A stretch of 62,825 nt of DNA from Clostridia bacterium (GTDB taxonomy: Bacteria; Bacillota; Clostridia; Oscillospirales; Acutalibacteraceae). Both the position numbers and the translations under genes were made by a program. A model generated the notes under the pieces. The model did not search any database. It was not told where the DNA came from and saw only the letters and a program-made list of their open reading frames with translations. Below, in pieces: positions 2,083 to 9,947 of this stretch; position 1 is the stretch's first letter; each line of letters starts with the position of its first letter. The DNA lies in contig JAFQEE010000058.1 in NCBI GenBank assembly GCA_017399175.1, positions 1-62,825 on the forward strand, given 5' to 3'.

Positions 2083-2115
2083 AAAAGCTCGGTTTTTACA
2101 CCGAGCTTTTGTTAT
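2083..2115 (-). terminator. Bidirectional-looking terminator after the SCP2 operon
   Basis: A 10-bp stem AAAAGCTCGG (2083-2092) / CCGAGCTTTT (2101-2110). The arm composition gives a U-tract in both directions. It lies 15 bp beyond the stop of the last gene of the minus-strand SCP2/transketolase operon. Confidence 0.8.
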
Positions 2116-2125
2116 GTGTATTATC

Positions 2126-2932
2126 TTATTTTGCCAATGCGCCGACTTCAAGCATAAATCCGCCGAGCTGTGCACCGAATTCAGGGCCGCCCTCCATAAT
2201 GAGCTTACCTGATTTTGTTGATTCAAGCATATCGTCTGTGCTTAAAAGGATACCAAGTGCTGATTCAAGGCAGTTGAAACGAAGTGTGAAGAAAGGCATT
2301 GCTCTCTTGTATTCGCCACGACCTGCTCTTGATTTACCTGCTTTGATACGGATGAAAGCAGATACCTCAGGGTGACCGTCAACTGCGAAAGCATAAACAC
2401 GGTCAGGGCTCTTTGTAGTCCAGTCCTTGATTTCAGGATGACCTAACTTGTTAAGCTGACTGATACCGCTTGAAAGAAGATAGAAGAAGCATTTAACCAT
2501 AAGCACTTGTGTTTCTTCATCCTTTGGTGCTGCAGTAGCGCCTGTAAGTGCTGAAAGCTTAAGAAGTGTCATAAGCATTGCCTTGAATGCACCAAAGCTC
2601 TTGAATACACCCTTCATTTTCGGGAGTGTTGCAGGGCCGATTTTGCCCTTAAAAAATGCGTTCATTGCCTCGATTGTTTTGAATTCAAGCTCAACATCAG
2701 GTGCTTCATGTGCAGAGTCAAGCTTTGTTTCCCATTCACCGTCAGTAATGATGAAGTGAGTAGCATATTTTCCACCCGGAGCATCAGCATCAAGTGCACT
2801 GACCTGAAGTACCGCATTCATACCGTCAAACTGTTTTTTTAGTGATGGTACATCATTAGCGATAACTTTTAAAAGCGGTAATGCAGCATTGAAAAATATT
2901 TTTGATGCATAAATTTCATTTTGTTCGTGCAT
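2126..2932 (-). CDS. SCP2-like (sterol-carrier-fold) protein, last gene of the transketolase/aminotransferase operon
   Basis: A 268-residue soluble protein without signal peptide. It appears to hold two SCP2-like half-repeats. The first has a beta-rich segment around FIITDGEWETKLD followed by ELEFKTIEAMNAFFKGKIGP and amphipathic helices. The second (after about residue 150) ends with FNCLESALGILLST...GKLIMEGGPEF...LGGFMLEVGALA, the usual G-x-I-x-G plus terminal helix pattern of the fold. SCP2 folds bind lipids or other hydrophobic ligands; ligand and role here are unknown. It is a paralog of the first gene of the operon (6212-6976), so two carrier-like proteins bracket the three enzymes. Its ribosome site is weak (GAAAGAGAG). 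The assignment rests on pattern similarity by eye, not on a profile search. Confidence 0.6.
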   Translation of the reverse strand: MHEQNEIYASKIFFNAALPLLKVIANDVPSLKKQFDGMNAVLQVSALDADAPGGKYATHFIITDGEWETKLDSAHEAPDVELEFKTIEAMNAFFKGKIGPATLPKMKGVFKSFGAFKAMLMTLLKLSALTGATAAPKDEETQVLMVKCFFYLLSSGISQLNKLGHPEIKDWTTKSPDRVYAFAVDGHPEVSAFIRIKAGKSRAGRGEYKRAMPFFTLRFNCLESALGILLSTDDMLESTKSGKLIMEGGPEFGAQLGGFMLEVGALAK

Positions 2933-2974
2933 ATTATCAACTCTCTTTCTGAACGAGTAAAGTTTAATTTAAAA

Positions 2975-3982
2975 TTATACTTCGTCGTCCCAGTTATCGT
3001 CTTCTTCAAAGTCTGCGTTCATCATTTCACGAATGGATGCGATGATACCGTTAGCGTCGATGCCTGCATCAGCCATAATGTCTTCCTGAAGACCAATCAT
3101 AGCAAAACTCTTATGACCGAGCATCTTGAATGCACAGCCCTTACCGTACTGAGCCATAACCTCAGCAACTGCTGAACCAAGACCGCCTGTTACAAGATGG
3201 TCTTCAACTGTTACGATTCTTCTTGTGTCGGAAATTGCCTTCTGGATAGCCTCAACGTCAATTGGGCTGATTGTGTGCATATTAAGAACGCGAACACTGA
3301 GTCCGTCATTTTTCTTAAGGAAGTCAGCAGCCTGTTTTGCCTGGAATACGCAAGAACCGCAAGCAATAACTGTAATATCTGTACCTTCACAGATTTCAAC
3401 AGCCTTACCAACCTCAAAGCCATAGTCCTGATTTTCATAAAGAACACGGTCAAAACCACGGTTGATACGGATGTAATATGGTCCGAAGTTATCATAAGCT
3501 GCGTTAACTGCGTTTGCTGTTTCAAAACCGTCAGCAGGAACGATAACTGTAAGATTTGGCATTGCTCTTGTGATTGCAAGGTCAGTAATAGCGTGGTGAG
3601 TTGAACCTGCCTGACCGAAAGATGTACCTGAATGAGTAGCAATAATCTTTGCGTTTACATTCTGATAGCAGATATCTGTGTGAAGCTGGTCACAAGCACG
3701 CATTGATGTGAATGCAGAGAAACCTGAAAGGAAAGGAATCATACCTGCTCTTGCCATACCTGCTGCAACACCGAACATATCCTGTTCTGCGATACCAACG
3801 TTGATAACTCTTTCAGGACAAACCTTTAAAACGTCACCAAGCTTTGTTGATTTTGCAAGGTCTGCTGTGATAGCAACAACCTTAGGGTCTTTTAAAATAA
3901 TGTCGGCAAGTGCCTTACCGTAAATTTCAGCTGTAGAAAGTGCAGTCTGGTCAACTGCTGTATAAACAAATCCGCCTGCCAT
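2975..3982 (-). CDS. Transketolase, C-terminal section (split enzyme, subunit 2)
   Basis: A 335-residue half-transketolase carrying the pyrimidine-binding domain (about 10-180: KALADIILKDPKVVAITADLA, then NVGIAEQDMFGVAAGMA with the catalytic Glu that contacts the TPP aminopyrimidine) and the C-terminal domain (about 190-315: GTDITVIACGS..., TVEDHLVTGGLGSAVAEVM). With the preceding gene it should form one TPP-dependent enzyme that moves two-carbon ketol units. Split transketolases occur both in central metabolism and in secondary pathways. A GGAGGG ribosome site lies inside the end of the upstream subunit gene, only 2 nt separate the genes, and translation is probably coupled. The C-terminus is unusually acidic (NADFEEDDNWDDEV). 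Confidence 0.9.
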   Translation of the reverse strand: MAGGFVYTAVDQTALSTAEIYGKALADIILKDPKVVAITADLAKSTKLGDVLKVCPERVINVGIAEQDMFGVAAGMARAGMIPFLSGFSAFTSMRACDQLHTDICYQNVNAKIIATHSGTSFGQAGSTHHAITDLAITRAMPNLTVIVPADGFETANAVNAAYDNFGPYYIRINRGFDRVLYENQDYGFEVGKAVEICEGTDITVIACGSCVFQAKQAADFLKKNDGLSVRVLNMHTISPIDVEAIQKAISDTRRIVTVEDHLVTGGLGSAVAEVMAQYGKGCAFKMLGHKSFAMIGLQEDIMADAGIDANGIIASIREMMNADFEEDDNWDDEV

Positions 3983-3984
3983 AA

Positions 3985-4866
3985 TTATTTACCCTCCTTT
4001 TCTGCTCTTGCAACTCTTGCTGCATAGTCCTCGTCAAGTTCTTTGTTGAACTTTTCAAAGAGTGCATCGTCGATTGCACCGTAGTGCCATGTGTAGTCGC
4101 CTTCGATTGACTTGATACCGGCACCCTTCTTTGTGTCCATAAGAATACAAGTAGGATTCTGAGGTGTCTTTGCTCTTTCGATTGCAACATCAATAGCATC
4201 ACAAAGCTCACCGATATTGTTACCGTCAACAACGATTGTGTTGAAACCGAATGCTGTCATTTTGTCAGCAAGTGGTTCAAGTTTCATAACATCTTCTGTG
4301 TTACCGTCAATCATATTGTGGTTACGGTCGATAAATACGATACAGTTAGAAAGATTGTAGTGATTCATTGTCATAAAGCCTTCCCAACATGAACCTTCAC
4401 CAAGTTCACCGTCACCAGTAACTACGTATGTAAGGAAATCTTTGTTCATAAGTCTTGCTGCAAGTGCTGTACCTGCTGCGATTGACGGGCCGTGACCGAG
4501 AGAACCTGTTGAAGCGTCAACGCCTACAACCTTGTTTGAGTCAAGGTGCATACCCATCTTTGAACCTGAAAGGTTGAATGATTTAAGCATTTCAACATCG
4601 TTAAATCCCTTGTCGCAAAGAACAGGAGCATAAGCGATTGCTGCGTGACCTTTTGAAAGAATAAATCTGTCACGGTCGTCCCATTGTGGTTCGTCAACCT
4701 TGATGTTAAGATACTTGTGATAAAGAACTGTGAGAAGGTCCATAACACTCATACCGCCGCCGAAATGTCCGCTACCTGCCCATACAGTTGTCTGTACGCA
4801 GAGTTTACGGAGTTCAAGGGCTTTCTTTTCGAGTGCGAGCCATTCTGCTTTTGATAAATTAGCCAT
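3985..4866 (-). CDS. Transketolase, N-terminal section (split enzyme, TPP-binding subunit)
   Basis: A 293-residue TPP-binding half. Motifs: GSGHFGGGMSVMDLL (about 31-45), RDRFILSKGHAA (65-76), STGSLGHGPSIAAG (119-132) and the TPP/Mg motif starting GDGELGEGSCWEG at 151 and running to the ID-RNHNMIDG segment near 188. His replaces the Gln of full-length transketolases in GSLGHG, as is usual in split forms. Partner is the next gene downstream. The operon contains an aminotransferase and two SCP2-like proteins instead of pentose-phosphate genes, which argues for a dedicated pathway and not housekeeping sugar metabolism. A hairpin (4896-4915) lies in its leader. Confidence 0.9.
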   Translation of the reverse strand: MANLSKAEWLALEKKALELRKLCVQTTVWAGSGHFGGGMSVMDLLTVLYHKYLNIKVDEPQWDDRDRFILSKGHAAIAYAPVLCDKGFNDVEMLKSFNLSGSKMGMHLDSNKVVGVDASTGSLGHGPSIAAGTALAARLMNKDFLTYVVTGDGELGEGSCWEGFMTMNHYNLSNCIVFIDRNHNMIDGNTEDVMKLEPLADKMTAFGFNTIVVDGNNIGELCDAIDVAIERAKTPQNPTCILMDTKKGAGIKSIEGDYTWHYGAIDDALFEKFNKELDEDYAARVARAEKEGK

Positions 4867-4895
4867 AATTTTCCCTCCAAGAAAAATTTATTAGA

Positions 4896-4915
4896 AGTGA
4901 AGTCCCCACTTCACT
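4896..4915 (-). promoter_or_regulatory. Intercistronic hairpin between aminotransferase and transketolase genes
   Basis: A perfect 8-bp stem AGTGAAGT/ACTTCACT with a 4-nt C4/G4 loop in the 62-nt gap. On the minus strand it is followed by a moderately U-rich run. It may be an internal attenuator or an mRNA stability/processing site that sets the ratio of upstream to downstream products. Confidence 0.45.
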
Positions 4916-4928
4916 ATGATTTGTTAAA

Positions 4929-6197
4929 TTATCCTCTGATTTCAGGATGATTCTTTGCTACAACTGAGAATGCATCTTCTGCAATTTCAATTGACTTCTT
5001 AATGTCTTCTTCTGTAAGAGAAGCATTGATGAAATGGTTATGGTGAGATGTAATAAACAAACCACGGTTAACACATTCTGCAACCCATTCCTGATGAAGC
5101 ATAAGGTTGTCATCGTTAGCGATTCTCAAGTAGAAAAGTGCAGGTTCACCTGAAACTCTGAGGTCAAATCCGTGTTCTGCACCTGCTGCCTTAAAGCCGT
5201 CAGTAACCATTTTACCAAGACGACGGAACATTGTTGGTGTATCAAGAGCCTTCATCTTGTTGATACAAGCGATACAAGCTGCGAATGGAACAGAACTCAT
5301 CCAATAAGAACCTGTGTATGTAATACCTGAAACAGTTGCTTTCATATGTTCACCACCGCAAAGTGCTGACATATTATAACCGTTTGCAAGAGCTTTACAG
5401 AAGCAGATAAGGTCTGCTTTGAAACCATAGAAATGGTCAGAACCTGCAAGGTCAAGACGGAAGCCTGCACGAACGTCGTCGATGATAAGAACAACACCGT
5501 GATCGTCACACCATTTACGAACTGCCTGCCAGTATTCCTTTGAAGCAACTTCGTTATCCTTGAAGTTACCGTGGTCATAAGGCTGTGCAATAAGACCTGC
5601 GATATCACCGTTGTTATCGTCATATGCCTTCTGGAGAGCATCAAGGTCAAACCAAGGAACGATAATGTTGTTTGCAACATCCTCAGGAGTGATACCCGGA
5701 TAGTCAATCTTCTGTGCCCATGGGAAATCTCCGTGATAGTAGTATTTTAAGAAAATAATCTTTTTCTTATGTGTATGTGCTCTTGCAGCCATAGTTGCAA
5801 GAGTTGTTGTGTCAGAACCGTTCTTGCAGAAGAATGCCCAGTCAGCACATGCTACAGTATCAACAAGAGTTTCAGCACATTCAACCATAACCTTTCCGGG
5901 CGCTGTTGTACAGTTGCCGAGTTTAAGCTGTGCCAAAGCAGCAGCATCAACATCAGGGTCGTTGTAACCAAGAACGTTAGGACCGTAAGCACACATATAG
6001 TCAATGTACTTGTTGCCGTCAACGTCCCAGAAATATGAGCCCTGTGCTTTTTCTGCGAAAGATGGCCATCTGTTAACAGGAATCCACTGTCCTTCAGCAG
6101 GGCCTAAATGACCGTAAATACCTGATGGAATAACCTTAGTTGCTCTATCGAACATTTCACGGCTTTTTGTTGTATCAAATGTTGGAAATTTACTCAT
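4929..6197 (-). CDS. Class-III PLP aminotransferase (glutamate-1-semialdehyde aminomutase-like)
   Basis: A 422-residue fold-type-I PLP enzyme. It shows the phosphate-site loop KNGSDTTTLA (about 125-134), the cofactor Asp in IIDDVRAGFR (Asp240) and the Schiff-base lysine in ICFCKALANGY (Lys268). The overall pattern (SRGM-like start, IPSGIYGH, YIDYMCAYGPNVLGY) is closest to glutamate-1-semialdehyde aminomutase-like enzymes, but no haem/tetrapyrrole genes are nearby. A plausible role is to aminate the ketone or aldehyde made by the split transketolase downstream, or to make an amino-sugar or aldehyde substrate for it. It has a good ribosome site (AAGGAGGACAATAAAG) and begins 14 nt after the first SCP2-like gene. 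Confidence 0.85.
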   Translation of the reverse strand: MSKFPTFDTTKSREMFDRATKVIPSGIYGHLGPAEGQWIPVNRWPSFAEKAQGSYFWDVDGNKYIDYMCAYGPNVLGYNDPDVDAAALAQLKLGNCTTAPGKVMVECAETLVDTVACADWAFFCKNGSDTTTLATMAARAHTHKKKIIFLKYYYHGDFPWAQKIDYPGITPEDVANNIIVPWFDLDALQKAYDDNNGDIAGLIAQPYDHGNFKDNEVASKEYWQAVRKWCDDHGVVLIIDDVRAGFRLDLAGSDHFYGFKADLICFCKALANGYNMSALCGGEHMKATVSGITYTGSYWMSSVPFAACIACINKMKALDTPTMFRRLGKMVTDGFKAAGAEHGFDLRVSGEPALFYLRIANDDNLMLHQEWVAECVNRGLFITSHHNHFINASLTEEDIKKSIEIAEDAFSVVAKNHPEIRG

Positions 6198-6211
6198 CTT
6201 TATTGTCCTCC

Positions 6212-6976
6212 TTATGCAAGATACAATGCAACTCTGTCAAGAATACGGTTTGCATTGTCAACCATTGAAATAAGTCCACGAATAACGATGTTTCCGTTAC
6301 CAACATGGTCAATTGAGTTTACTGTACCTGCGAAAAGTGCGTTTGCAAGCTGAAGGTCACAGAATTCCATAATTGCACGAGGTTTTGGAGAAGCCTGCTT
6401 GATTGTGATAAGGTGATTGTTCTTAACACGGATTGTTGAATAAACAACATCCTTAATGCCAAGCTGAATGTCACCGTCAACGATGTTTGAAGCACTGAAC
6501 TTACCGATATCATCCTGATTACCAATCTGTGAAATTGCTACTGAAACAGTATAGAATGTACAGATTGTGTTAAGACGGAAGAAATCAGGGTCATTGAGTG
6601 CTTCAGGGTCAGGTCTCATAACCTCTGTAAGTCTGTCTGTGAGTGCGGTAAATGTCTTTAAAAGGAAACCTACTTTTGTAAGACCCTTTGTAGGAATAGG
6701 TGTTACCACACCGTCGATAATTTTGTTGAATTTTTCGCAAGATGATACAGGAATCTTGATATCGCACTTGCTGTTGACGCCATCTTCCATACGGCATCCG
6801 TTTTTAGAGAATGTAAGTGTAGCACTTGGACCATCTTTAACATCAAAAGCCAATGAAACAGGATTTTCAAGAGTTGAAAGAATTTCTTTTGCTTTATTGT
6901 CAAGTTCGCAAAGATTTTCCAAAGTGCCGAGAACAGCATACATATTTATGTATGCCATTGTTCTTGCGTCAGTCAT
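6212..6976 (-). CDS. SCP2-like (sterol-carrier-fold) protein, first gene of the operon
   Basis: A 254-residue soluble protein. The ATG at 6976 is chosen over one at 6997 because AAGGAGGCG lies 7 nt upstream of it. Its architecture parallels that of the 2126-2932 protein: LAFDVKDGPSATLTFSKNG then SSCEKFNKIIDGVVTPIPTK and helices in the first half, and MEFCDLQLANALFAGTVNS...GNIVIRGLISMVDNANRIL in the second half. Each protein therefore looks like two SCP2-type repeats. Such folds carry hydrophobic molecules, so the operon may act on a lipidic intermediate, but that is inference. Low overall identity to its paralog suggests they bind different ligands or act as a heterodimer. Confidence 0.6.
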   Translation of the reverse strand: MTDARTMAYINMYAVLGTLENLCELDNKAKEILSTLENPVSLAFDVKDGPSATLTFSKNGCRMEDGVNSKCDIKIPVSSCEKFNKIIDGVVTPIPTKGLTKVGFLLKTFTALTDRLTEVMRPDPEALNDPDFFRLNTICTFYTVSVAISQIGNQDDIGKFSASNIVDGDIQLGIKDVVYSTIRVKNNHLITIKQASPKPRAIMEFCDLQLANALFAGTVNSIDHVGNGNIVIRGLISMVDNANRILDRVALYLA

Positions 6977-7052
6977 TTTGAACGCCTCCTTAATCATTTT
7001 TCAGTATAACTAAATTAAGAAATTTATATACACATTAAAGGATATCAAAAAA

Positions 7053-7070
7053 TCCTTGTTAAATCAAGGA
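7053..7070 (-). promoter_or_regulatory. Terminator-like hairpin in the leader of the SCP2 operon
   Basis: TCCTTG/CAAGGA stem with a 6-nt loop. Read on the minus strand it is followed by TTTTTT, about 77 nt before the first start codon of the operon. It could attenuate the operon if transcription begins upstream, or stop stray antisense transcription from the secA side. Confidence 0.4.
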
Positions 7071-7118
7071 AAAAACCTAAATTTTTCACAAAAAGTTAAT
7101 GATTTTTTCTGAAATATA

Positions 7119-7127
7119 TGTTATAAT
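7119..7127 (+). promoter_or_regulatory. Extended -10 promoter candidate for secA
   Basis: TGTTATAAT (TG at 7119-7120, TATAAT at 7122-7127) with no convincing -35 box. It is 94 nt upstream of the secA start. Confidence 0.5.
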
Positions 7128-7220
7128 GTTACCAATATATAATGGGTTGGTTTAGGCAAATGCCAAAATGATATAAAATACCCGTAAAAACTGCAATTTT
7201 CTGAAAGGATAGATATAAAA

Positions 7221-9947
7221 ATGTCTTTATTCAAAAAACTTTTCGGTGACTATTCTTCGCGAGAAATCAAGAGAATTATTCCTATTCAAAAACAAGTTCT
7301 CGCTCTTGAAGAAGAATACAAAAAACTTACTGACGCAGGACTTCAGGCAAAAACTCCTGAATTCAAGGAAAGACTTAAAAATGGTGAAACACTTGACCAG
7401 ATTCTTCCCGAAGCATTTGCTGCTTGTCGTGAGGCATCTGCTCGTGTTCTTAATATGCGTCATTTCCCTGTACAGATTATCGGTGGTATCGTTCTTCATC
7501 AAGGACGAATTGCTGAAATGAGAACAGGTGAAGGTAAAACTCTTGTTGCTACACTTCCTGCATACCTTAACGCACTTGCAGGTAAAGGTGTTCACATTGT
7601 TACTGTCAACGATTATCTTGCTCGTCGTGACTCTGAATGGATGGGTAAATTATATCGTTTTATGGGACTTTCAGTAGGTCTTATCGTTCACGACCTTGAC
7701 GGTGAACAAAGGCGTCAGGCTTACGCTTGTGACATCACTTACGGTACAAATAACGAAATGGGCTTTGACTATCTTCGTGACAATATGGTTATTTATGCTG
7801 AACAGAGAGTTCAGCGTGGTCACAACTTCGCAATCGTTGACGAAGTTGACTCAATCCTTATTGACGAGGCAAGAACTCCGCTTATCATTTCAGGTATGGG
7901 AGATAAGTCAAACGAGCTTTACAAGGTGGCAAATGAATTTGCAAAACGCCTTAAAATGTATAAGGTAAAAGAAGTCGATTCAAAGCAGGGAATTGAAAAT
8001 ATGGTTCCTGAAGAATATGACTTTGTTGTTGACGAAAAAGGTAAAACAGCATCTCTTACAAAGGGTGGTATCAAAAAGGCTGAAAAAGCTTTTGGTGTAG
8101 AAAACCTTGCTGATGTTGAAAACCTTACACTTCAGCACCATATTGACCTTGCAATCAAGGCAATCGGTGTTATGAAGCGTGATGTTGACTACGTTGTAAA
8201 AGACGGTCAGGTGCTTATCGTTGACGAATTCACAGGCCGTATTATGCTTGGTCGTCGTTATTCTGACGGTCTTCATCAGGCTATTGAAGCAAAGGAAAAT
8301 GTTAAGGTTGAGCGTGAGTCAAAAACTCTTGCTACTATCACATTCCAGAACTATTTCCGTCAGTACACAAAACTTTCAGGTATGACAGGTACTGCTATGA
8401 CTGAAAGTGGCGAATTCCAGGAAATTTATACTCTTGATGTTATCGAAATTCCTACAAACAAGCCAATGATTCGTAAGGACGAAGAAGATGTTCTTTATAA
8501 GACAGAGGCTGTGAAATTCAAGGCGATTATTGAACAGATTCTTGAGTGTAACAAAATCGGTCAGCCTGTCCTTGTGGGTACAACCAATATCGAAAAGAGT
8601 GAGCTTTTAAGTAAAGCACTTCGCAAGGCAGGTATTCAGCACAATGTTTTGAATGCTAAATTCCACGATAAGGAAGCAGAGATTATCGCACAGGCAGGTG
8701 CCCTTGGTGCTGTTACAATTGCTACAAATATGGCAGGTCGTGGTACTGACATTATCCTTGGCGGTAACCCCGACTATATGGCTCGTTCAGAAATGAGAAG
8801 AATGGATTATTCTGATGAGCTTATTGCAGAGGCAACAGGTTTTGCAGAAACAGATAACACAGATATTATCGAGGCAAGAAAAGTTTATCGTGAACTTGAA
8901 CAGAAATATAAGAATCAGTTAAAGGATGAAGCAGACAAGGTTCGCCAGGCTGGTGGTCTTTTCATCATCGGTACAGAACGCCACGAATCACGAAGAATTG
9001 ACAATCAGTTGCGTGGTCGTGCAGGTCGTCAGGGTGACCCAGGTCGCAGTAAGTTCTATCTTTCAGCAGAAGACGAATTGCTCCGTCTTTTCGCAGGTGA
9101 CCGTTTCTATAACATCATTGACGCGTTCCCAAGTGCTGCTGACCTTCCTATTGAGGCAAAGATTTTCTCAAGCACAATCGAAAATGCACAGAAAAAGGTT
9201 GAAGGCAACCACTTTGCTGCTCGTCGTAATGTCCTTAAATTTGACGATGTTATGAATGAACAGAGAAAGAAAATTTACGAACAGCGTAATCAGGTGCTTG
9301 ACGGATATGATATCCATTCAGCAATCCTTAAAATGTTTGACGGATACTTTACTGAACAGGTTGATTTCTATTGTCCTGATTCACAGTCACCAGACGACTG
9401 GAACAGAGCAGGTCTTGTAAACAAACTCAAATATCTCGCAGAAGAAGGACTTGAAACAAAGTTTGATACAAATGCAGAATACAAGGATTATTTTTACAAC
9501 AAGGCTATGGACATCTACATAGCAAAATATGAAGAATACGGTGAAGACCTTATGTCAGAACTTGAAAGAAAGGTTCTTCTTCATAATGTTGACCAGAGAT
9601 GGATGGACCACCTTGACGCTATGGATGAACTCAAACGCGGTATTTATCTTCGTTCTTATGCACAGCAGGACCCTGTTGTTGCATTCAGAATGGAAAGCTA
9701 CGATATGTTTGACGAAATGAACTCACTTATCCGTGAGGGTACAGTTACAACACTTACTCTTTTCCGTATAAGAAGTGAGGAAGATGTTAAGCGTGAGCAA
9801 GCAGCAAAGATTACTGCAACAAATGGTGAAACAGACGGCAGCGATAAAAAACGACCAATCAAAAAGGGCGAAAAAGTCGGCAGAAATGACCCATGTCCTT
9901 GCGGTAGCGGTAAGAAATACAAAAAGTGCTGCGGTGCAAATGAGTAA
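7221..9947 (+). CDS. secA: Preprotein translocase ATPase SecA
   Basis: A 908-residue motor that drives secretory proteins through SecYEG. Walker A is MRTGEGKT (about 100-107). The DEAD-box part reads [19 protein letters not shown], followed by the preprotein cross-linking domain and the second nucleotide-binding domain with [15 protein letters not shown] and [23 protein letters not shown] (arginine-finger region). The C-terminus ends in a zinc-binding SEC-C motif, [16 protein letters not shown], which contacts SecB or ribosomes in other species. It is at the long end of the family because of a charged linker (about 860-885). AAAGGAT precedes the ATG. prfB, which often follows secA, is absent; two envelope-protein genes follow instead. 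Confidence 0.98.

Follow-up and report, generated by a model that had tools for sequence, protein, structure and literature searches.

Serine palmitoyltransferase (SPT) is the textbook entry to sphingolipids, where it works with a 3-ketosphinganine reductase (KdsR), and its gene serves to identify sphingolipid producers in microbiomes. FumI, a class-III aminotransferase, is part of a fumonisin-degrading cluster, and pairs of a thiamine diphosphate (TPP) enzyme with an aminotransferase are known from PigD/PigE of prodigiosin synthesis and from the split transketolase of 3-amino-5-hydroxybenzoic acid (AHBA) synthesis. In transketolase, Arg358 (Escherichia coli numbering) binds the sugar phosphate and Asp469 the acceptor hydroxyl. 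According to excerpts of the published papers, on which all citations here and below rest, FumI-type transaminases strip the 2-amino group from hydrolysed fumonisin B1 with pyruvate as the partner, and fumonisins are similar to sphingosine and sphinganine (PMC9858248); the split transketolase pair of Carboxydothermus hydrogenoformans works as an enzyme (PMC7661550); and bacterial sphingolipids derived from a polyketide synthase are another departure from the usual sphingolipid route (PMC12134224). Here we describe a five-gene operon, A to E, found in a stretch of 62,825 nucleotides (the window) of Clostridia bacterium contig JAFQEE010000058.1, which joins a FumI-like aminotransferase and a split transketolase to two SCP2-like proteins.

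From its gene content and active-site residues, we suggest that the operon encodes a two-enzyme module for a sphingoid-type lipid backbone. SPT-independent synthesis is its most likely function, although the case for it falls just short of an even chance; an involvement of the module with sphingoid-like 2-amino-1,3-diol or 2-amino-3-ol lipids, in whichever direction, is probable. We arrive at this set of reactions because carrier-type proteins accompany both enzymes, the aminotransferase is of a kind that acts on sphingoid-like amines, the transketolase lacks its acceptor-hydroxyl residue, and gene content switches between the operon's transketolase and SPT.

The window belongs to a genome of 2.1 Mb in 72 contigs (96.9% complete), whose nearest named kin are Clostridia metagenome-assembled genomes (MAGs). 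The ORF list bears out the five tightly ordered minus-strand genes of the first-pass annotation, with intergenic gaps of 14 (A-B), 62 (B-C), 2 (C-D), and 42 (D-E) bases. The genes and their key residues are as follows.

6212..6997, minus strand: gene A, tandem SCP2-like protein of 261 amino acids (ORF list and SCP2 fold of the model)
4929..6197, minus strand: gene B, class-III pyridoxal phosphate (PLP) aminotransferase of the FumI (aminopentol aminotransferase) kind, 422 amino acids (PF00202, PDB 6hbs)
5394..5396, minus strand: Lys268 of B, the PLP lysine, conserved in operon copies, on the FumI side, and in glutamate-1-semialdehyde aminomutase (GSAM)
3985..4866, minus strand: gene C, N-terminal (TPP-binding) half of a split transketolase, 293 amino acids (PF00456, 2e-39; 6yak, 3e-58)
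4573..4575, minus strand: Asn98 of C, which replaces Arg91 of E. coli transketolase, the salt-bridge partner of Asp469 (alignment)
2975..3982, minus strand: gene D, C-terminal half of the split transketolase, 335 amino acids (PF02779, 1e-38; PF02780, 9e-26; 6yaj, 2e-68)
3608..3613, minus strand: Gln124-Ala125 of D, which replace Glu-Asp469 of E. coli transketolase (alignment)
3929..3931, minus strand: Ala18 of D, which replaces the sugar-phosphate Arg358 of E. coli transketolase (alignment)
2126..2932, minus strand: gene E, second SCP2-like protein and paralogue of A, 268 amino acids (hhalign, tree)

For gene A, Met8 at 6976 is the start common to most homologues.

The five-gene operon is real and conserved, and its order goes beyond chance. 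Named public genomes yielded 19 A-encoding loci: A-B-C-D-E is complete at 16, and at the remaining three the contig ends before the operon does. The hosts are MAGs assigned to Clostridia, Clostridiales, Oscillospiraceae, Ruminococcaceae, or Ruminococcus, and several come from the gut of deer, buffalo, sheep, or yak. The same order and strand were found in 20/20 genomes compared separately, some of which overlap with the public loci. Counting the window's genome, A is present in 54 of 147 genomes of relatives and in 7 of 398 genomes of the phylum; the operon, traced by A, occurs in 36 of 38 other genomes of the genus, the two misses being 86% and 68% complete. Across all loci we collected 69 distinct A sequences, each with a same-strand B no more than 9 kb downstream. 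Of these loci, 48 have the full A-B-C-D-E order, 14 have A-B without an adjoining C, and 7 are cut short by the end of the sequence extracted around them (the window's operon, L024, among these); the last 21 were sorted with longer surrounding loci. The full order extends to three genomes of other families (G304, G450, and G531), and in some genomes the operon is split in two, A staying with B and E with C-D. The conserved neighborhood that the first-pass annotation had asked for thus exists, and no pentose-phosphate gene family recurs beside the operon in the 37 loci whose surroundings were compared.

Loci from three genera have extra reading frames between B and C (L056 5786-6424, L060 2760-3806, and L063 5890-7200), which marks the B-C junction as the looser one. 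One copy of gene A (L064, genome G078) has an in-frame TAA with B to E open, which is either a broken gene or an assembly error.

B is a FumI-type class-III aminotransferase. It matches PF00202 (4e-37), and Lys268 aligns as first annotated. Against PDB sequences B scores 309 bits with FumI (6hbs, E 4e-91) and 141 bits with the best GSAM; identity is 37.7% to FumI, over a nearly full-length alignment, and 26.4% to GSAM. Forty positions of B are common to the FumI side and differ from the one GSAM compared. Among NCBIfam models, B lies nearest to the GntE and GSAM types, far below their cutoffs, and none of the 25 families listed, out of 68, reached its cutoff. Assignment of B as GSAM (HemL) was rejected: TIGR00713 gives 176 bits against a cutoff of 527, and the position of the GSAM Glu, which we take to be the catalytic residue (Glu406 in Synechococcus), is His386 in 40/40 operon-type rows. 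The resemblance to FumI does not extend to gene context, since the operon sets B beside SCP2-like and transketolase genes. Further FumI relatives, 38 to 41% identical, lie in other contexts on plasmids of Variovorax, Novosphingobium, and Shinella; at these three loci neither an SCP2-like protein nor a transketolase half is annotated beside the gene.

C and D are the two halves of a transketolase, as originally read: C consists of Transketolase_N and D of Transket_pyr plus Transketolase_C (Pfam), and the nearest structures for both come from the C. hydrogenoformans split enzyme, which has the same two-gene architecture and the same TPP and His residues. In human numbering, His37, His77, His110, His258, Asp155, and Asn185 are intact in 35/35 copies of C, as are Glu366 and His416 in 33/33 copies of D; in E. 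coli numbering, Ser385, His461, and Arg520 are intact in all 37 other D copies. Unlike the C. hydrogenoformans enzyme, the operon's C/D lacks the equivalents of Asp469, Arg91, and, mostly, Arg358. Glu-Asp469 is Gln-Ala in the window and in 33/33 other distinct D sequences from contiguous operons, and Asp469 is gone (Ala or Ser) in 37/37 other D copies, a count that excludes the D of G275, which its contig end truncates to an aligned length below 200 and which likewise has Ala18 and Gln-Ala. Arg358 is gone in 33/33 contiguous operons (Ala, Ser, Gly, or Thr) and in 35/37 copies overall; the four C-D-E loci beyond the 33 have Ala or Ser at Asp469, and two of them retain Arg358. The Arg91 position is Asn in the window's C, in 35/35 other operon copies, and in five further ones (40/40 others). 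In E. coli transketolase, D469T is reported to break the salt bridge of Asp469 to R91 (PMC5073344), so the operon enzyme has lost both bridge partners, which lie on two genes. Among control split pairs read in both subunits, the six with Asp469 also have Arg91 and the five without Asp469 also lack Arg91.

The D469T and D469A substitutions raise activity on propionaldehyde, with 1,3-dihydroxypentan-2-one as the assayed product, and several D469 mutants accept linear aliphatic aldehydes (PMC3657141). Titles in the reference list of that paper speak of transketolase coupled with transaminase to make amino-alcohols and 2-aminopentane-1,3-diol. As far as these excerpts describe them, such engineered routes to 2-amino-1,3-diols match the route that we propose for the operon in their two reactions, in the order of these, and in the altered transketolase residue; unlike the operon, they are man-made and short-chain.

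On a phylogenetic tree, operon-type D forms one clade (22 rows, support 99/93) apart from other split enzymes; the tree included 17 of the 33 operon D and left out fused transketolase/DXS rows and four fragmentary or distant rows. The window's genome has two more split pairs, L001 and L004. The L001 pair keeps Arg91, Arg358, Glu-Asp469, His461, and Arg520, with Ala at Ser385. L004 (contig C68), with Ser-Leu at Glu-Asp469 and Tyr at Arg91, appears to be a specialized transketolase. Genome G275 has another C-D-like pair (L148 6647-10283), with Asn-Gly at Glu-Asp469 and Arg358 intact; it lies beside genes that by eye resemble a short-chain dehydrogenase/reductase (SDR) and a zinc alcohol dehydrogenase, no match to E adjoins it, and it probably represents a different specialized transketolase operon.

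A and E are paralogues that form SCP2-related families. The SCP2-like assignment made at first pass holds for the families, for the fold of A, and for the relation of A to E; taken alone, the window's A falls below the PF02036 threshold (13.3 bits, cutoff 21.3) and its E has no SCP2 match in the Pfam scan. At E ≤ 0.1, PF02036 matches 12/18 A homologues and 2/17 E homologues, with best values of 9e-8 (A) and 5e-8 (E). The two outer proteins are related to each other, their profiles aligning by hhalign at 99.0% (E 2.6e-18), and the A profile also picks up E in at least 7 of 23 A-bearing genomes. The predicted structure of A has a tandem SCP2 fold, as judged by VIA-align comparison. On a joint tree each family falls on its own side of a 100/100 branch. 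Profile searches of the PDB gave weak matches only, including SCP2 4uei (E 0.69) for A and none of the SCP2 kind for E. Because A goes with B and E with C-D even in split operons, each carrier-like protein seems dedicated to one enzyme. Both are putative lipid carriers that would hold or feed lipid substrates. The amino-ketol or amino-alcohol lipid first proposed as the product still appears to be the best chemical reading; its passage between the two carriers is unsupported, given this pairing.

The link to sphingoid bases comes from gene content. Within the order, A, D, and SPT were each searched in the same draw of 394 genomes (matched by genome handles), A by profile, operon-type D at E ≤ 1e-80, and SPT at E ≤ 1e-100. 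A was found in 23 genomes, D in 14, all with A, and SPT in 53. The 23 genomes with A divide into 14 with D and no SPT and 9 with SPT and no D; none has both and none has neither. SPT thus occurs in 9/9 genomes that have A without D versus 44/371 genomes that lack A (P = 1e-8; by genus, 6/6 versus 27/158, P = 4e-5), and the SPT/D split within A genomes has a P of 1e-6 (by genus, 6/6 versus 0/4, P = 0.005), kinship being handled at the genus level only. The window's genome has no SPT at E ≤ 0.001.

In four genomes (G591, G604, G743, and G767), A-B adjoins SPT and a KdsR-like gene, with A-B placed first (A-B-SPT-KdsR) in two of them and last (SPT-KdsR-A-B) in two. Three of the adjoining SPT genes were scanned and match NF047600 at E values between 3e-161 and 5e-155, below the curated cutoff; the one compared with PDB 3a2b SPT scores 402 bits. 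For the reductase, NF049977 outscores every other family in each of the three genes scanned, again below cutoff; at E ≤ 1e-40 it marks all nine genomes with A and SPT, as well as G304, none reaching the curated cutoff. SDR genes near L015, L065, and L081 were not counted as KdsR, being only 26 to 35% identical over 184 to 230 residues. The SPT/KdsR pathway and the operon share a presumed product class and differ in the proposed C-C bond-forming chemistry. On the B tree, the nine SPT-associated copies sit in two places (a group of eight, and G789) among transketolase-associated copies, with middling support at the deeper forks, which may mean two or more entries of A-B into SPT lineages. SPT itself is fairly common in the order (53/394 genomes, e.g., L183-L188), and a KdsR-like reductase adjoins it in 9 of 10 loci viewed.

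In the proposed route, a sugar phosphate or hydroxypyruvate would be the donor of a two-carbon ketol unit, which C/D would shift to a long-chain fatty aldehyde, the lipid being held by E, to give a 1,3-dihydroxy-2-alkanone. B, with its partner A, would then swap the 2-keto for a 2-amino group, with the alanine/pyruvate pair assumed as amino partner on the model of FumI, to give a 2-amino-1,3-diol, a sphinganine-like base. Both steps are reversible in principle, so that fatty aldehyde plus ketol donor, 1,3-dihydroxy-2-alkanone, and 2-amino-1,3-diol could interconvert. We favor synthesis because the transketolase genes replace SPT and KdsR, the operon is core to the genus, and families of transporters, dehydrogenases, or regulators that might serve uptake or breakdown each lie near 4 of 37 loci at most, an SDR group excepted. 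Its presence in nearly the whole genus, with no recurring neighbor family, is as expected of core metabolism. The fuller proposal, that the operon is a second natural route to sphingoid bases in which transketolase and aminotransferase each have their own tandem-SCP2 carrier, and that it replaced SPT and KdsR in a lineage of gut Clostridia with the same active-site change that engineers made, is a tentative one that we would sooner doubt than assert.

Several observations weigh against SPT-independent synthesis. FumI is known as a detoxifying, amine-removing enzyme, and its relatives on the three proteobacterial plasmids lie near genes resembling small-molecule catabolism, in Shinella near genes of the acetoin-dehydrogenase type. 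The absence of SPT from D-bearing genomes is not significant by itself (0/14 versus 53/380, P = 0.23), and these 14 genomes represent four genera and include one, G138, that is 60% complete; KdsR-like genes (NF049977) occur in 2 of the 14. In genomes from outside the order, D and SPT occur together in G304, D without SPT in its relative G450, and neither of the two in G364, although that genome has A-B. Asp469 and Arg91 are also gone in other split-transketolase paralogues (L004, L095, L099, L104, and L148), so their loss marks a nonstandard substrate, which by itself need not be a lipid. Genome G138 has an aldehyde dehydrogenase gene 68 bases downstream of E (L145 4864-6234), and an alanine dehydrogenase and a major facilitator superfamily (MFS) transporter flank A-B (L069 672-1811 and 5135-6367); the two dehydrogenases would suit breakdown. 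Finally, were amination of a transketolase product the sole task of A-B, its place beside SPT and KdsR would be unexplained; in those genomes sphinganine deamination, or some other role, would fall to it. Since FumI removes amines, G138 has its dehydrogenases, and A-B beside SPT would be roleless in pure synthesis, our preference for synthesis over breakdown, supposing that sphingoid lipids are handled, is a modest one.

The best-surviving alternative, which we consider unlikely although it deserves serious attention, is catabolism by the same chemistry reversed: B would deaminate dietary, host, or bacterial sphingoid bases with pyruvate, and C/D would then act on the resulting 1,3-dihydroxy-2-ketone, handing its ketol unit to a sugar phosphate, freeing a fatty aldehyde, and sending two carbons into sugar metabolism. 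This direction is the one in which FumI-type enzymes run (PMC9858248), and it suits the neighbors of the operon in G138 and of the FumI-like gene in Shinella, an iron-type alcohol dehydrogenase after A-B in G060, and hosts that are gut bacteria, several from ruminants. It fits poorly with the scarcity of recurrent uptake or breakdown genes and with the near-universal presence of the operon in the genus, and A-B within SPT-KdsR operons would be futile.

A ketone end product is improbable. A 1,3-dihydroxy-2-alkanone or a lipid derived from it would be made from sphinganine via A-B in SPT genomes, and in operon genomes transketolase and aminotransferase would keep ketone and amine exchanging. On this reading A-B has a task in SPT genomes and the SPT-KdsR-A-B operons are accounted for, but transketolase genomes would make the ketone without B, and B is present at 69/69 loci. 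At much the same low level we place a small polar substrate, a short aminodiol (serinol-like or amino-sugar-like) made or degraded with the SCP2-like proteins in structural or regulatory roles. In its favor, carbohydrate kinase and class II aldolase genes are found near two of the proteobacterial FumI relatives, and loss of Asp469 alone implies no lipid; a long chain is suggested instead by the link to SPT and KdsR and by the presence of a dedicated SCP2-type protein for each of the two enzymes. We rejected a pentose-phosphate role, in which the operon would hold an ordinary spare transketolase with a chance aminotransferase neighbor, as very improbable, because, although all of the catalytic TPP and His residues checked are intact, the genome has two more split pairs, of which L001 keeps most of the usual residues (Ser385 being Ala), and the operon enzymes form a separate clade with Asp469 and Arg91 changed in every copy examined.

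Around the operon, leaving aside A to E, SPT, and KdsR, every neighboring gene family is confined to a few of the 37 loci at most. Those that recur are ABC-transporter-like genes (4 loci), TetR-type regulators (4), an alanine dehydrogenase/PntA group (3), and the SDR group (7, including the 4 KdsR). Family names of neighbors were assigned by eye except where scanned, and antisense ORF clusters were ignored as shadow frames of A to D. Genes of the PntA transhydrogenase type are divergent to A-B in G305 and to C-D-E in G060 (L083 around 6314-9241; L147 2824-6479); they had been considered as alanine dehydrogenases, a name that was dropped in favor of the transhydrogenase type. TetR-type genes lie 3' of E on the same strand at three loci of different genera and near the operon at a fourth, making this regulator a candidate lipid-sensing one. 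Promoter-like matches in the intergenic stretch upstream of A were weak and, in the stretch scanned, no commoner than in shuffles. The features outside the genes of the operon are as follows.

2083..2110, minus strand: hairpin resembling a Rho-independent terminator, with an 11-pair stem and a T-rich tail, 15 bases past E (hairpin scan)
6998..7220, no strand: intergenic region between the operon and a divergent plus-strand gene at 7221-9947, presumably SecA-like from its sequence (ORF list)
L079 6128-6778, plus strand: TetR-type regulator (Pfam)
L061 13215-13874: TetR-type regulator (BLAST to the L079 gene)
L062 13502-14215: TetR-type regulator (BLAST to the L079 gene)
L064 4600-5349, minus strand: TetR-type regulator (BLAST to the L079 gene)

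Every enzyme family in the operon is already known, and pairs of a TPP enzyme with an aminotransferase exist. The nearest precedents that emerged are FumI and the SPT operons; to PigD/PigE and the AHBA system the likeness is this pairing, by general description only, and the sphingolipid system of PMC12134224, as excerpted, uses a polyketide synthase where the operon has a transketolase. The open-licence literature, by titles and the starts of abstracts, yielded no description of this operon or of a transketolase route to sphingoid bases. If proved, synthesis would be a new sphingoid-base pathway, in which the head carbons could come from sugar rather than serine, and nature would already own the transketolase-transaminase aminodiol route built by biocatalysis. 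If catabolic, the operon would be a gut pathway for dietary and host sphingoid bases, undescribed as far as these literature searches go. Should the operon act on long-chain bases in either direction, gut Clostridia without SPT are wrongly being scored as inert towards sphingolipids.

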